This document shows positions 28,615 to 56,942 of a stretch of DNA of 56,942 nt, in pieces (positions within the stretch are counted from its first letter, which is position 1; each line of letters begins with the position of its first letter). A model generated the notes under the pieces. It saw only the letters and a program-made list of their open reading frames with translations, did not search any database and was not told the origin of the DNA. The stretch spans positions 1-56,942 of the forward strand of contig CAJFEE010000018.1 of the NCBI GenBank assembly GCA_904373265.1. Reading direction: 5' to 3'. This stretch comes from Candidatus Harrysmithiimonas galli. GTDB lineage: Bacteria; Bacillota; Bacilli; CAJFEE01. Position numbers and translations under genes: made by a program.

Positions 28615-30001
28615 AAAATAAAGAAGGCTAAGAAAAGAGATTGAAATACAAAATTATGTGTGAAAACGTCTTCTTTTTCATGGATAATAGGAAGTTTGTT
28701 TCCATATTTCATGTGTTTTTTAGATGTGTAAACGTTTTTACACATCTTTTATATCATTTGATACTTTTTTCCATGATTATGGAAAAAAGTATACAAAGGA
28801 ATTATGTCTAGTTAAGATAGTTCCTATTAGAAGGCTGCATTATGTACTTTATCCATGAGGAAACATTAAAAAGGGTCTGTACTACAAAGAATTTTTTTCT
28901 GTAATAAGAACGTTCTTTGACGATATATCTTCGTTTTGCAATTATCATATAACAGAAGTTTGAATAAATGAAAAAGGATATAAAACAGCATAAAGATAAA
29001 TTGGAACAGGCGAGAAACGAACCCTCGAATTTCACCAGATCTTCAAGTATATCTATAAGGATAATGTAAATGGCACCAGCTAAGAACGTTTTTTGAAATG
29101 GTTTGCTAAGGATCAAACGGAGTAAAGAGAACGGACAGAGTTTGTTAAAGCAAGGTTCGCCTGTGTTCATATTTATGGGTAGAGCAAGATTGGATTTGAT
29201 GGTGTTACTACCATCATTTGAAATGATGTGGGAATTGAATCATTCCCTTCGAATTGTTAACAAATTTGTAAAGAGAACCATTGTTTATGCGTCAGATAAA
29301 CTTAGTGGACATTGCCAATAAAAGATACCAATCATTTAGAATTTCATTAGAGGCTCCTCTCTATCAAATGAGAACCAAACCATTCACATGAAATGGTAAA
29401 GAAAAAGAAGGGTATAGCCAAACACTATTATAAACATCTATATTACTTCCTGATCAATACTCAAGGCAACAACAAGAATTTTAAAATCAATTGTAAACCA
29501 TCGTAAAACCATTTATCTTGTAAAAAGGTATTTTAAAATAGCCTCATTCATATATTTCAATATTAGTTGCACCTTTTATAATTTTAATGAAATGCTAGTA
29601 TTTCTGTTCCAAAAAGAAAAATGTATAAAATAACATAGACAGTATACAAGCTGCATAAAAATTATAAATCAAATGGGTTTTGAAAAACTGCATTCTGATC
29701 CGTCCTGAACCAGACTATAAATTTAACCATATTGTATAATAAGAGATGCTTTTGCTGCCTACATAAACAAATAAAATGATAAGAAAAATGAAAGAATAAG
29801 CTAGAAGTATGCCAAAAGACCCAAAAAAAATGTACGAAAATCGTCAAAACCAAATTGTTTTACAATGAAAATAAAAAATTAGGATGCAAGTTGTTTCTAG
29901 TTGATGGTATAATGAAGAATATTAGTGTATAATTTTTGAACAAAGCTAAAGGATAGTTTTGTTTGTAGAAGCAGGACAGAAATAGAGGAGTGGAATGATT
30001 T
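28615..30001 (+). other. 1.4-kb region without a recognisable gene
   Basis: It begins with the metH terminator (28722-28755). From about 28800 to 29530 the DNA has short broken frames on both strands, including a 72-codon plus-strand piece at 29103-29321 ending KRTIVYASDKLSGHCQ and a 120-codon minus-strand frame. None resembles a family I know. The pattern suggests decayed coding or mobile DNA. The rest, to 30001, is AT-rich; a TATAAT at about 29909 may serve motA. Confidence 0.45.
28722..28755 (+). terminator. Terminator after metH
   Basis: AGATGTGTAAA pairs perfectly with TTTACACATCT across a 3-4 nt loop, then TTTATAT. Confidence 0.85.
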
Positions 30002-35582: not shown

Positions 35583-35973
35583 TTTACAATGGCAAAAATC
35601 TGATGTATAAAATCATTCATTGGTTAAAAATGGACAACTGAACATGTTCCTTTTTAAGCAAGATCATTTGAATTATAAAGTTGGATTTGTATGAAAAAGA
35701 CATAATTTTTAAGTAGAGTAAATTATAATTTGCATAAAATATAATGCGTGATATGATAAGCCCAGTATGAAAAAGTCGTATAGGAATGGTTTCTGGTGTT
35801 TATATTTTGATTGCTGATGCAATGTTTTTTGTATTGATTTGAGTTCAATCGAATTTTTTCCGGTTTGAACAGAAAGTGAGTGTTTTAATATCGTTTGGTA
35901 AAAAAACAAATCTTCTTATAATTTTTTGTTTCAAATGAAACATAAAATACAACCGCTGAAAAAGCGGGTGTAT
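35583..35973 (+). other. Gene-free stretch between convergent genes
   Basis: About 390 bp with no credible ORF; a minus-strand frame at 35709-35909 has no ribosome site or family match. The aminotransferase terminator lies at its right edge (35944-35976). Confidence 0.5.
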
Positions 35974-35976
35974 TTA
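35944..35976 (-). terminator. Terminator of the aminotransferase gene
   Basis: AAATACAACCGCT and AGCGGGTGTATTT form a 13-bp stem with a 7-nt loop; reading on the minus strand, TTTTATG follows. Confidence 0.75.
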
Positions 35977-37122
35977 GGATAGAACAAGTTCGATGGCATC
36001 ACAGGCTTTTTTTATGTTCTCCAATGAATTGGCAAAACTGAAGCGCATATAGCCTTGCCCATAAGGGTCAAAAGCTGTACCCGGTGTAGCAGCAACTTTA
36101 GCATTTTCCAGTAGCCATAGAGCAAAATCAAAGCTATTATTTGAAAATTTTGTATGATTGGCAAATAAATAAAAAGTACCGGCTGGTTTATTGACAGTAA
36201 AGCCGATTTCTTGTAATCGTTCTGCCAAATAAAAGCCACGTAATTGGTATTCAGCACACATTTTTATGCTATCATGAATTCCATTTGTTACAGCGGACAA
36301 TGCAGCAGCTTGCGAAATTGTGCAAGGGCAAGTAATATGATACTGCTGTGCTTTTATGGCTTGTTGAATAAATGTTTCTGGACCGAGTAAAAATCCAATT
36401 CTCCATCCAGTCATGGCATGAGATTTAGATAAACCTTGAATAATAATAGATTGTTTCCGAACTGTTGGAAAATGTCCAATTGAAACATGTTCAGCTTGGA
36501 AGCAAATTTCACTGTAAATTTCATCAGAAATAATCCAAATATTTTTATGCTCTATTGTTGATATAAGACATCGCATTTCTTCCTTGGTTAGTGCTGTTCC
36601 AGTTGGATTGTTTGGATATGGTAACACAATAATTTTTGTTCGGTTTGTTATGGCATTTTGCAATGTATCAGGTGTCAGTTTAAAGTTTGTTTGGCTTGTA
36701 TCAATATAAATGATTTTCGCACCGCACATCTGGACAATTGGTGCATAGCCAGGATAAATTGGTGCGGGAATAATGACTTCATCTCCAGGTGTTAGGATTG
36801 TTTGAAATGCGGTGTGCAGTGCTTGTGTTGCTCCATGTGTAACAAGAAGTTCAGTTTCTGGATGGTACTCAAGTGCATATTTTTTTTGAAAATATTTTGC
36901 AGCAGCCTGCCGGAGCTCGGGTTTTCCACCATTTGGTGTATATGCGGTATCATTGTTTTTAATTGCATGTATTGCAGCTTGTTTTATATGTTCTGGTGTA
37001 TGGAAATCAGGTTCGCCAATGGTCAGATGAATAGCCTCTGGTATTTGTTTGGCGATGGCTGTAAATTTTCGTATACCAGAAATTTGTATGTTTTTTAGGT
37101 TGGGGTTAAGATTTATATGCAT
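35974..37122 (-). CDS. PLP-dependent class I aminotransferase (PatA-like)
   Basis: A 382-aa fold-type I aminotransferase. The N-terminal substrate gate reads TIGEPDFHTPEHI. NPTG is present as YPNNPTGTALT near residue 174, with ISDEIYSE following. The PLP lysine is in GLSKSHAMTGWRIGF near residue 235, and the C-terminal Arg is in YMRFSFA. It resembles PatA/N-acetyl-diaminopimelate and aromatic aminotransferases, which act in lysine synthesis or amino acid turnover; the exact substrate is uncertain. It reads leftward, away from cheV, and starts from an AAGGAGTT ribosome site. Confidence 0.9.
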   Translation of the reverse strand: MHINLNPNLKNIQISGIRKFTAIAKQIPEAIHLTIGEPDFHTPEHIKQAAIHAIKNNDTAYTPNGGKPELRQAAAKYFQKKYALEYHPETELLVTHGATQALHTAFQTILTPGDEVIIPAPIYPGYAPIVQMCGAKIIYIDTSQTNFKLTPDTLQNAITNRTKIIVLPYPNNPTGTALTKEEMRCLISTIEHKNIWIISDEIYSEICFQAEHVSIGHFPTVRKQSIIIQGLSKSHAMTGWRIGFLLGPETFIQQAIKAQQYHITCPCTISQAAALSAVTNGIHDSIKMCAEYQLRGFYLAERLQEIGFTVNKPAGTFYLFANHTKFSNNSFDFALWLLENAKVAATPGTAFDPYGQGYMRFSFANSLENIKKACDAIELVLS

Positions 37123-53302: not shown

Positions 53303-54178
53303 ATGCGCGAAAAACAAGCTTGGAGCTTTAATGGTTTTATTGCAGTTATAGCCATTATTATTTTGCTGGGATTGGCGGTGATCACATTTTTAAACAGTTC
53401 AACCCCATTTGGGATTGCAATGTCAATATCTTCTCTTTTGTTTATGGTATTATGTATTGTACTCGCACTTATTTTATTGGCTGGTTTGGTCGTTTTACAA
53501 CCAAATGAGGCAATGGTTTTAACTTTTTTCGGAAAATATATGGGAACGATTCGCCAGGATGGTTTCTTTTTTGCAATTCCAGCATCGAAACGAAAAATTT
53601 CTTTACGTGTGCGAAACTTTAACAGTGAAACATTGAAGGTCAATGATGTTGATGGAAATCCGATTGAGATTTCGGCGGTTATTGTATTTCGGGTTGTAGA
53701 TGCGGCTAAAGCAGTGTTTGACGTAGACAGTTATGAAAGTTTTGTCCGAATTCAAAGTGAAACGGCACTTCGTCATATGGCTACAAAATATCCTTATGAC
53801 AGCCCGGATACAGGTGTTATATCTTTGCGCGGCAATACGGAGGAAGTTGCACAAGGCTTAGCACAGGAATTGCAAGAAAAACTTCGTGTTGCTGGTGTTC
53901 AGGTATTGGAGGCACGCCTGAACCATTTGGCCTATGCGCCGGAAATTGCTAGTGCAATGCTTCAACGTCAGCAGGCCAATGCCATTGTGGCTGCACGTCA
54001 GAAAATTGTTGAGGGTGCTGTTGGAATGGTGGATGATGCATTATCTTTATTAGAAGCGAAAAAAGTGATTCAGTTGACTGAGGAACAAAAAGCACAAATG
54101 ATTTCCAATTTAATGGTTGCCATTGTTTCGGAAAAAGGAACTCAGCCAGTGATGCAGGCAGGAAATGTGCAAAAATAA
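53303..54178 (+). CDS. SPFH/Band 7 membrane scaffold protein
   Basis: A 291-aa protein. Two N-terminal membrane helices (about 9-29 and 38-60) are followed by the SPFH domain (VVLQPNEAMVLTFFGKYMGTI onward, about 62-230). That domain includes a Glu/Ala-rich coiled region with AEQ-type ends (LEARLNHLAYAPEI, then QRQQANAIVAARQKIVEGA). Such proteins form oligomeric membrane microdomain scaffolds, sometimes with a protease or hydrolase partner. No NfeD or HflK/C partner is adjacent. GGTGGAG precedes the ATG. A mobile element starts just after it. Confidence 0.9.
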   Translation: MREKQAWSFNGFIAVIAIIILLGLAVITFLNSSTPFGIAMSISSLLFMVLCIVLALILLAGLVVLQPNEAMVLTFFGKYMGTIRQDGFFFAIPASKRKISLRVRNFNSETLKVNDVDGNPIEISAVIVFRVVDAAKAVFDVDSYESFVRIQSETALRHMATKYPYDSPDTGVISLRGNTEEVAQGLAQELQEKLRVAGVQVLEARLNHLAYAPEIASAMLQRQQANAIVAARQKIVEGAVGMVDDALSLLEAKKVIQLTEEQKAQMISNLMVAIVSEKGTQPVMQAGNVQK

Positions 54179-54259
54179 ACCATTGGTGTTACGAGGTTTT
54201 TAATGGTTGCTTTTCGTCTGGTGACGCAAAAGTGACCATTTTTATTCGAGCAATGCACA

Positions 54260-55405
54260 TTAAAGGAAAATGTCAAAAACCTTGATCCCCTCTATTAAAT
54301 CATCCATTTCTGTATGTGTATATTTATTTAACGTAACTCGTATATCGCTGTGACCTAACAATTTCTGCACCACATTTATATTCGTTCCTGATTGAACCAA
54401 AAGAGTAGCGAATGTATGGCGCAATCCATGGAAATTGAGATATGGGATAGGCGACTTTTTACAAAAATCATACCATTGTCTGTTAAGCCCTTTTAGACTT
54501 TGTGGTTGTCCAATTTCATTTGAAAAAAGAAAAGTGATATTGTTGCCATTCATATCCTTTTGTTGTTCCCAAAGTTCGCCCATAGAAAATTTCAGCTGTT
54601 TGATTTTAAATATATATTTTTTCAAATCATGCTCTACGATTGTGTTCATCGGAACAATTCTTCCTTTGCCATTTTTAGGCGACTGAAGAATTTTTTCGTT
54701 TGTATCTAATATTACTTGCAAATTTTTATTTACCGATATTGTTTTAGTTTTAAAATCTACATCTTCAATGCAGAGTGCCATAATTTCCCCTCGACGCAGA
54801 CCACATAATACAGCCAATTTGGCTTGTACATTTAACTTTTCTGTAGCGTTATTTTCTAGCTCGCGAATTAAAATTTTAACTTGTTCTTTTGTATAATGCT
54901 GTATTTCTCGTACTTGCTTTTCTGGCTTTCTGTTCTTTACTTTTTTGGCTGGATTACTGTCAATAACTTCCCATTCTTTTGCCCGTTCAAAGATGCTTTT
55001 TAACATTGAATGTTTTTTATCTAATGTTCTTCTTCCGGCATTTTCTTCTGCTTCAAAGAATTTTTCAATGTGTAGCGGTTTTATTTTTTTCATTTCCATT
55101 CCTTTAAAGAAATTTAAAACTCTACCTTCATTTTCTTTGTACAAATTTTGTGTACTTACTTTAAGTGTTTTTAAGTACAGTTTTTTGAAGTGTTCTTCAT
55201 AAAATGTTTCAAAACTTATACCGTCTAGGTCCATTGTTTTTGTGTTTCTAACTTCAACCTCCAACTCCGTAATAGCCTTTTTGAGCGCACGCTCCGATTT
55301 TGCTGTTACGGTTTTTGTTTTTCTTATGCGTTTTCCATTATCGTCGTATCCCAATTCGACGTATATTTTGTATTTATTTTCTCCGATTTGTTTGTAGCTT
55401 GCCAT
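54260..55405 (-). CDS. int: Tyrosine integrase of a prophage-like element
   Basis: A 381-aa site-specific recombinase. The N-terminal AP2-like/arm-binding domain (GENKYKIYVELGYDDNGKRIRK) and the core-binding domain (about 65-160) are followed by the catalytic domain. Arg is in GLRRGEIMAL; Lys is probably in NGKGRIVPM. HGLRHTFATLL and LGHSDIRVT give the His-Arg-His set, and Tyr is in NKYTHTEM. The start is ATG 55405, just after GGAGTAATTAAC; a longer frame to 55471 lacks this. The attachment site should lie to its left, between 54179 and 54259, but I cannot see a repeat. hicB lies 70 bp upstream. Confidence 0.93.
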   Translation of the reverse strand: MASYKQIGENKYKIYVELGYDDNGKRIRKTKTVTAKSERALKKAITELEVEVRNTKTMDLDGISFETFYEEHFKKLYLKTLKVSTQNLYKENEGRVLNFFKGMEMKKIKPLHIEKFFEAEENAGRRTLDKKHSMLKSIFERAKEWEVIDSNPAKKVKNRKPEKQVREIQHYTKEQVKILIRELENNATEKLNVQAKLAVLCGLRRGEIMALCIEDVDFKTKTISVNKNLQVILDTNEKILQSPKNGKGRIVPMNTIVEHDLKKYIFKIKQLKFSMGELWEQQKDMNGNNITFLFSNEIGQPQSLKGLNRQWYDFCKKSPIPYLNFHGLRHTFATLLVQSGTNINVVQKLLGHSDIRVTLNKYTHTEMDDLIEGIKVFDIFL

Positions 55406-55474: not shown

Positions 55475-55873
55475 CTAATATAAATCCAACTTTTCTTTTA
55501 GTGCATCTTGAAGCACTTGAGAGAAATTCACACCTTGCTTTTCTGCTGTTGTGTTTAACCATGCCGGGATTGTTAATGTCTTTTTGACTGCTTTGCTATG
55601 GAATAATTTTCGGTATTCTAAGGTATCACATGATATTAAAGAGACAAATTCATTATCATTTGTTTTCACAGTTTTTATGTTACTTGGTAAAGGAATATCA
55701 CCGTTCATTTCTTCTATATCGTAAATCATTAAACACAATGCGTCTTGAGCTGCTTCCATGGCATCAGCAAGGTCATTTCCACAAGTAAAACATCCTTCAA
55801 TATCAGGAAATTTTACAGAATACATCCCACTTTCTTCCAATGTAAAAATTGCGGGGTAAACATATTTTGCCAT
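55475..55873 (-). CDS. hicB: HicB-family antitoxin
   Basis: A 132-aa protein with the partial RNase H-like HicB domain (MAKYVYPAIF, then FPDIEGCFTCGNDLADAMEAAQ) in the first 65 residues. A ribbon-helix-helix tail follows (KKTLTIPAWLNTTAEKQGVNFSQVLQDAL) for DNA binding. It should neutralise HicA and repress the operon. It follows hicA by 38 bp that contain a hairpin. GGAGGATTTAAAT precedes its start. It lies with the integrase on a mobile element, typical of addiction modules. Confidence 0.93.
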   Translation of the reverse strand: MAKYVYPAIFTLEESGMYSVKFPDIEGCFTCGNDLADAMEAAQDALCLMIYDIEEMNGDIPLPSNIKTVKTNDNEFVSLISCDTLEYRKLFHSKAVKKTLTIPAWLNTTAEKQGVNFSQVLQDALKEKLDLY

Positions 55874-55906: not shown

Positions 55907-55925
55907 CGGGGCTATTTTAGCCCCG
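55907..55925 (-). promoter_or_regulatory. Hairpin between hicA and hicB
   Basis: CGGGGCT pairs with AGCCCCG across a 5-nt loop. The hicA stop lies in the loop. It lacks a T run, so it is not an obvious terminator and may set the toxin to antitoxin ratio by RNA folding. Confidence 0.45.
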
Positions 55926-56106
55926 CTTCTTTAAGAATGGATTCTAGAGTTCCGTTTGCAATTTCTTGTTTATCGTGTCTGCCTACTGAGAATAATTTAT
56001 TTGTTTTTGGACTGTACCATATTTCATGTCTTTTTCCCTCTCTGTGTATTCTGCATCCGTTTTTCTTTAGAATCTTTTTTAGCTCACAATACCTCAATCC
56101 ATTCAC
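55912..56106 (-). CDS. hicA: HicA-family mRNA interferase toxin
   Basis: A 64-aa double-stranded RNA-binding-fold toxin. It begins NGLRYCELKKILKKNGC and has the catalytic His 27 in EGKRHEIWYSP. It ends in the typical GTLESILKEAGLK. Toxin first, antitoxin second is the usual HicAB order. It cleaves RNA when HicB is lost. Promoter and operators lie directly upstream (56118-56146). Confidence 0.93.
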   Translation of the reverse strand: MNGLRYCELKKILKKNGCRIHREGKRHEIWYSPKTNKLFSVGRHDKQEIANGTLESILKEAGLK

Positions 56107-56187: not shown

Positions 56188-56205
56188 TATTTTGTTTATA
56201 AATAA

Positions 56206-56222
56206 AAGGGGAGCGACCCCTT
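56206..56222 (-). terminator. Terminator of the repressor fragment
   Basis: AAGGGG and CCCCTT form a stem with a 5-nt loop; on the minus strand TTATTTATA follows. It lies 24 bp beyond the repressor stop. Confidence 0.7.
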
Positions 56223-56245
56223 CATTTTTAAATAGCTTAGATAAA

Positions 56246-56700
56246 TTATTCAATTTCAAATCCATAAGGTGATATACAGCCTACATACTTGCCAATTATC
56301 CTGATGTCATCAAATTCTCCGTATTGTTGTTCCTCGTGTATTGGGTTATGGCTTAATGGTTCCAAAATCAATTTTTTACTGAAGCTGAATTTCAAAACCC
56401 TTTTAAGAGTTGCGTCGCCACCATTTATGAAAACCGCAGCTATTTCTCCAGTTTTGACATCATCTTGTTTTTGGAAGATTGCATAATACCCGTCTGGAAT
56501 AATTCTATCCATAGAATCACCATTTATCTTTAAGGCGAACATTTCTTCTGTATCAATTTTGTTGTCTAGCCAAGGACAAGCTATTTCTCCTATATCTTGT
56601 ATTGCTTCAAATGGGAGACCAGCAGATATAGAGCCATATATAGGTATGGTCGGTATGTTTATATCATCTAAATCTTCCCCTATTAGGGGCGGTGACGTAA
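56246..56700 (-). pseudogene. S24-peptidase phage repressor, N-terminus missing
   Basis: The open frame reads leftward from about 56700 and has the complete C-terminal half of a LexA/CI-type repressor. The cleavage site is Ala-Gly in GSISAGLP, the Ser nucleophile in NGDSMDRI, and the Lys in ATLKRV. The helix-turn-helix domain expected before it is absent, and within 40 bp the sequence becomes the tail of a serine recombinase gene. The first ATG in frame (56542) would make only 98 residues without the cleavage site. It is probably interrupted by the second element and inactive as a repressor. Confidence 0.85.
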
Positions 56701-56722
56701 GAAAACATTTATGTGAGAGAAT

Positions 56723-56744
56723 CGGCGTAGTTTAGGCTACGCCG
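56723..56744 (-). terminator. Hairpin at the end of the serine recombinase gene
   Basis: CGGCGTAG and CTACGCCG form a perfect 8-bp stem with a 6-nt loop holding the recombinase stop. It marks the end of the incoming element. Confidence 0.65.
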
Positions 56745-56942
56745 GTTTTCTTTTCTTTTAGGGCTGCTTGGGATTGCTCCCTTGCTTCCTCAAAATCAAA
56801 TGCACCAATGAAGTTATAGACGATCTCAATTTCTCTGACCTTAATGCGCGGCTCGTTCTCGTCCGGCGTGTAAACCTCGGAGATATAAATTTTCTCCACA
56901 AACTCCCGGAGAACAGAGGCGTCAAGCTGCTGCATATCGGTG
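56732..56942 (-). CDS. Large serine recombinase, C-terminal DUF4368 end (partial)
   Basis: The frame enters from the right edge and gives about 69 residues to TAA. The peptide LDASVLREFVEKIYISEV, then EIEIVYNFIGAFDF, matches the DUF4368 tail of large serine recombinases that move conjugative or mobilisable transposons (TnpX/TndX-like). The catalytic domain is outside the window. Base composition is clearly more GC-rich than all DNA to its left, a sign of recent transfer from a different host background. Confidence 0.85.
   Translation of the reverse strand, partial: TDMQQLDASVLREFVEKIYISEVYTPDENEPRIKVREIEIVYNFIGAFDFEEAREQSQAALKEKKTGVA

Follow-up and report, generated by a model that had tools for sequence, protein, structure and literature searches.

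At the right-hand end of the DNA analysed here (the window: a stretch of 56,942 bp that is the complete contig C18 of a 2.7-Mb genome in 59 contigs), the genes of a tyrosine-integrase element adjoin the C-terminal half of an S24 repressor gene, and the DNA then passes, near the contig end, into the last part of a gene for a large serine recombinase (LSR). The question raised by this arrangement, and answered in the affirmative by an earlier note, is whether a second mobile element has landed in the repressor gene of a first. It is considered probable that a multi-targeting ICE of the TndX/TnpX type has inserted in the linker region of the S24 repressor of a resident prophage-like element.

The resident element

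The left part of the region contains the following features:

54151..54179 (+): attL of the resident element, a 29-bp direct repeat (100% over 29 bp) overlapping the 3' end of an SPFH/band-7-like gene
54260..55405 (-): tyrosine integrase of the resident element (Pfam PF00589, 8e-28, and PF14659; PHROG integrase, 3e-67)
55475..55873 (-): HicB-like antitoxin (PF15919, 4.5e-13)
55912..56106 (-): HicA toxin (PF07927, 2.6e-15)

That the int/hicAB element is real, as had been proposed, follows from the perfect direct repeat found on both sides of it, at C18:54151-54179 and at C32:1766-1794; the match between the two has an E of 4.4e-8, against 0.28 for the runner-up in the genome. The two copies are the att sites of this tyrosine-integrase element, attL on C18 and attR on C32; the gene ending at attL precedes the integrase gene, which itself adjoins one of the two repeats. 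Positions 1-1765 of C32 would then form the right end of the resident element, with a DUF6414 gene, and the sequence to the right of 1795 is host flank. Since the end of the LSR element is located beyond attL, away from the host gene, the LSR element is most likely nested within the tyrosine-integrase element. With int, hicA and hicB beside it, the S24 fragment lies where a lysogeny module would be expected to have it.

How the contigs between C18 and C32 are arranged is not fixed, because the left edge of C32 (its first 225 bases) consists of a repeat that stands at the end of C2, C31 and C24 as well. This repeat of ~220 bp at four contig ends (L109:1-225, L137, L108 and L157), 91–96% identical among its copies, encodes the tail of a protein (...DVGKTQTHVSVMFAANSSRYGEVVEWLKEKGIRYDVE) with no Pfam or PHROG match. 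The stretch of the resident element that separates C18 from C32 is not assembled. Phage structural contigs (C36 and C39) are present in the genome; C36 was ruled out as the lost remainder of this element by its own integrase and by an HTH protein followed by an ImmA-like gene. As a separate observation, the 3' region of hicB has an 80%-identical fragment on contig C28 (L013:624-807).

A repressor without its DNA-binding half

Next to hicA lies the fragment on which the question turns:

56246..56685 (-): C-terminal half of an S24 (LexA/CI-like) repressor (Pfam, PHROG, alignment)

The S24 peptidase domain is complete, with PF00717 matched over profile positions 1–116 of 116 (E=4.7e-21; 56,246–56,686 on the minus strand), and the PHROG match is "transcriptional repressor" (2e-23). 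The alignment reveals that the Ala-Gly cleavage site (ISAGLP), the serine of GDSM and the lysine of ATLKR are all kept. The frame remains open as far as the junction, and its first in-frame start codon, at 56,542, falls within the S24 fold, none being found before it. Five intact relatives have 74–109 residues ahead of the first securely aligned column, so the fragment is devoid of the HTH and the linker, that is, of about 75–110 N-terminal residues. As no N-terminal HTH lies upstream of the junction, this is half of a repressor rather than a repressor, in agreement with the earlier description of an S24 C-terminal half deprived of its DNA-binding half. The remnant does not possess a start codon and, as a whole domain, is dead. 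Homology to the repressor at the protein level is secure only up to about 56,657. Searches of genomes, viral contigs, phages and plasmids returned no relative of the S24 half above about 43% identity, and neither an intact allele nor an empty site was found in them.

The end of a serine-recombinase element

To the right of the fragment, four further features complete the window:

56658..56685 (no strand): zone holding the insertion crossover, CCCC-TATTA, beside the element end (five-junction alignment, limit of protein homology)
56686..56709 (no strand): conserved 24-bp end of the LSR element, GGGGCGGTGACGTAAGAAAACATT (comparison with relatives)
56723..56744 (no strand): terminator-like hairpin overlapping the LSR stop (kept in relatives with two-sided base changes)
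56732..56942 (-): 3' end of an LSR gene with DUF4368, cut by the contig end (PF14287, 3.7e-11)

The tail of an LSR with distinctly higher GC, reported previously, was confirmed on both counts. PF14287 scores 43.5 bits against a cut-off of 25, and the GC content of the tail is 47.4% versus 35.3% for the contig, and among 210-bp windows 3 of 1,135 have a GC content as high. The gene is present over its final 69 codons, with the stop at 56,732, and neither the frame nor the element end shows stops or decay. Only 257 bp of the inserted element (56,686–56,942) are contained in the window.

The position of the change needed correction: it had been placed at about 56694–56722, yet the end of the LSR element begins at 56,686, which is 8–36 bp further left, because this end includes about 45 non-coding bases, namely the hairpin and the terminal motif. 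The exact crossover base lies somewhere in 56,658–56,685. The DNA past the stop codon is common to a 50%-identical recombinase of Vescimonas fastidiosa (AATGTTTTCTTAmGTCACCGCCCC). This terminus pattern occurs once in the window and never in shuffled sequences, and once in the genome itself with up to 3 mismatches allowed; with 3 mismatches, it occurs in 3 of 398 genomes of the phylum. Besides the Vescimonas ICE, its carriers are two further genomes of the phylum (G658 and G609) and one IMG/VR contig. In Vescimonas, the IMG/VR contig and G609, it is situated just downstream of the end of a DUF4368-type recombinase gene, and likewise in the short stretch available from G658.

On its other side, the terminus of these four relatives borders a barstar region, AbiEi/AbiEii genes, the 3' flank of an alpha-L-fucosidase gene and the 3' end of a FAD-binding reductase gene, and in none of the four an S24 gene. 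Thus, five junctions have five different flanks, and the terminus is found in unrelated target sites. Since the far-side neighbour differs in every case, the block represents the end of a recombinase element, and the boundary is a genuine mobile-element end, with the same 24-bp terminus after DUF4368 LSR genes in four unrelated contexts. A stem-loop between the LSR stop and the terminus is present in all five sequences, with two-sided pair changes (T-A/A-T, C-G/T-A and G-C/A-T), and segments containing it have folding z-scores between -2.8 and -7.3. The IMG/VR contig (6.9 kb; L070:1846-5959) carries three tandem serine recombinase genes and adjoining AbiE genes together with the same terminus.

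Nature of the inserted element

Most LSRs of a multi-targeting clade, which includes the TndX-like subfamily, are reported to carry DUF4368 (PMC10083194). By homology, the inserted element would be an ICE. The closest comparison is offered by two nested ICEs on pMM35_01 of Vescimonas fastidiosa:

NZ_AP023416.1, about 605.7–606.1 and 661.2–662.6 kb (L188:41372-46568; L189 about 35,750–36,090): Vescimonas nested-ICE loci

The outer ICE, of ~101 kb, encodes VirD4/VirB6/VirB4 of the CD1115/CD1112/CD1110 type, a relaxase, MobC and TnpW, and its two ends are imperfect inverted repeats; the left-end consensus of the element, as in Vescimonas, is AAGAGCGTTGACATAGGAAAACA. The recombinase that matches the one in the window is the C-terminal part of a TnpX-like gene. 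A reading of it as the last member of a tandem set was rejected, since the gene has been interrupted by the inner ICE, which itself carries four to five recombinase genes. The nesting thus leaves the outer element without a working recombinase of its own. On its two sides, the outer ICE is flanked by the same 23-nt tRNA 3'-end sequence in opposite orientation (L190:26,200-26,260; L066:4219-4267), a match that, taken together with the element ends, reaches 49 nt at 86%, which suggests inverted half-sites or a past inversion.

In the genome under study, the remainder of the LSR gene, expected to encode Resolvase, Recombinase and zinc-ribbon domains, was on no contig searched, and a profile search with PF03432 detected no relaxase; the body of the element is therefore absent from the contigs covered. 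Its loss in binning or assembly is likely, as the contigs of G658 and G609 also stop close to the terminus (within 124 and 361 bp, respectively). Two candidates were discarded on the way: contig C59 (3.4 kb), which contains a recombinase fragment and was considered as the continuation, has a degenerate recombinase frame that is not at a contig end, and the right end of C9 (L184), where the N-terminal part of an ArdA-like gene continues in frame as the C-terminal portion of a tyrosine integrase, is the deletion scar of another conjugative element, unrelated to this one.

The repressor's HTH half was found neither near the 23 HTH_3 hits nor in the contig-end stretches of the genome, and a fuzzy scan for either end of the element detected no second end in ~0.7 Mb of partly overlapping stretches, made up of the contig-end stretches and the 1.5 kb surrounding each of the HTH_3 hits and leaving out seven small contigs (C47–C51, C55 and C58). 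The proposal of a mobile element landed in a prophage repressor stands as regards the element end and the resident element, its ICE component is suggested by homology, and the far half of the repressor with the second junction was not recovered.

How the junction may have arisen

In the preferred scenario, a conjugative element of the Tn4451/Tn5397/Tn1549-like group, with a DUF4368 recombinase at its right end, would have entered the repressor gene, the LSR recombining its attP with a loosely specified attB there. The S24 half would have been left by the element's right end, and the HTH half would lie beyond its left end. The loss of S24 dimerisation and self-cleavage may leave the resident element derepressed, or non-inducible by SOS should the HTH half still bind; an insert the size of an ICE may also hinder packaging of the resident element. 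Of this chain, the sequence directly shows the LSR tail with the element end, the cut-off S24 frame and both att copies of the resident element.

An unlikely, though not far-fetched, alternative is that the LSR element inserted in or near the repressor and that later deletion or decay removed the HTH half, most of the element, or both, leaving a scar. It would account for the rest of the recombinase, the PF03432 relaxase and the HTH half all being missing from the searchable sequence, and such scars exist in this genome, as shown by decayed DUF4368 tails on C4, C6, C8 and C34 and, weakly, at 29,250–29,348 of the window. However, the recombinase frame and the element end at the junction are intact and free of stops, and the contigs of G658 and G609, which also end in or beside the recombinase, point to a gap in assembly or binning. 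The degenerate DUF4368 tails themselves may possibly be scars of earlier elements; among those in L015, L016, L018 and L019, most are weak or contain stops, and the one in L015 is intact with the remaining recombinase missing.

A chimeric join made by the assembler or by binning, in which the recombinase tail does not truly adjoin the repressor half, is very improbable. The join lies 257 bp from the contig end, at a marked rise in GC, and the other parts of the inserted element are absent from the assembly; nevertheless, it falls at a conserved natural end of a recombinase element, as in four independent sequences, an end that a random chimera would not respect. Finally, it is very unlikely that the S24 half stands alone or belongs to the cargo of the recombinase element, encoding an S24 protein devoid of HTH with nothing interrupted: although its frame stays open as far as the recombinase stop, it has no start codon ahead of the catalytic part and lies on the resident-element side of the terminus, by hicA, hicB and int. 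Since the element end has different neighbours in each of its four relatives, none with an S24 gene, the half-repressor is not standard cargo; standard cargo was the finding that the earlier note had named as fatal to its proposal.

Returning to the insertion of an ICE in the repressor, LSR excision is conservative, so the split state could in principle revert. It is nonetheless very doubtful that excision serves here as a reversible switch, with the repressor split when the ICE is integrated and the HTH and S24 halves rejoined, restoring repression, when it is excised; no sign of regulated excision is seen in the sequence. If such a switch did operate, control of the prophage would be tied to ICE excision.

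Mobile elements nested in one another have been described before, as have promiscuous DUF4368 recombinases, and a promiscuous recombinase family can be expected to give rise to such nesting; this locus is a plausible new instance of it. The literature searched contained no description of an ICE inserted in the repressor of a prophage. The locus shows, at base level, one end of a probable serine-recombinase ICE of the multi-targeting type and yields a 24-bp terminal signature, with its hairpin, that can be put to use. It also offers a plausible example of a resident element whose control gene was disabled by an ICE, and is thus relevant to how these ICEs alter the prophages that share a Firmicutes genome with them.

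Comparison with known systems

The CI/LexA-like S24 repressors of Firmicutes phages have the S24 fold, the Ala-Gly cleavage site and the Ser/Lys pair in common with the fragment, at about 37–43% identity (the relatives compared were from a Secundilactobacillus plasmid-borne prophage-like element, staphylococcal phages and a gut phage contig). Unlike them, the fragment is devoid of the HTH domain and linker (about 75–110 residues). In the case of gin in gerE of Bacillus cereus, a serine-recombinase element likewise splits a regulatory gene that excision could restore, although excision of gin is developmentally programmed and no regulated excision is evident at the present locus (PMC5595907).

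The outer Vescimonas ICE (about 561.2–662.6 kb of pMM35_01) is similar in its LSR tail, which is 50% identical, and in its terminal motif, identical at 23 of 24 positions, but differs in lying by a tRNA gene, in its GC content of 51–55% and in having its own recombinase gene split by another ICE. Lastly, the copy described here, seen over 257 bp at its right end, has in common with the Tn4451/Tn5397/Tn1549-like ICEs with TnpX/TndX-type LSRs a recombinase at the right end reading toward that end, a DUF4368 C-terminus, a conserved terminal sequence and unrelated integration sites (PMC10083194).
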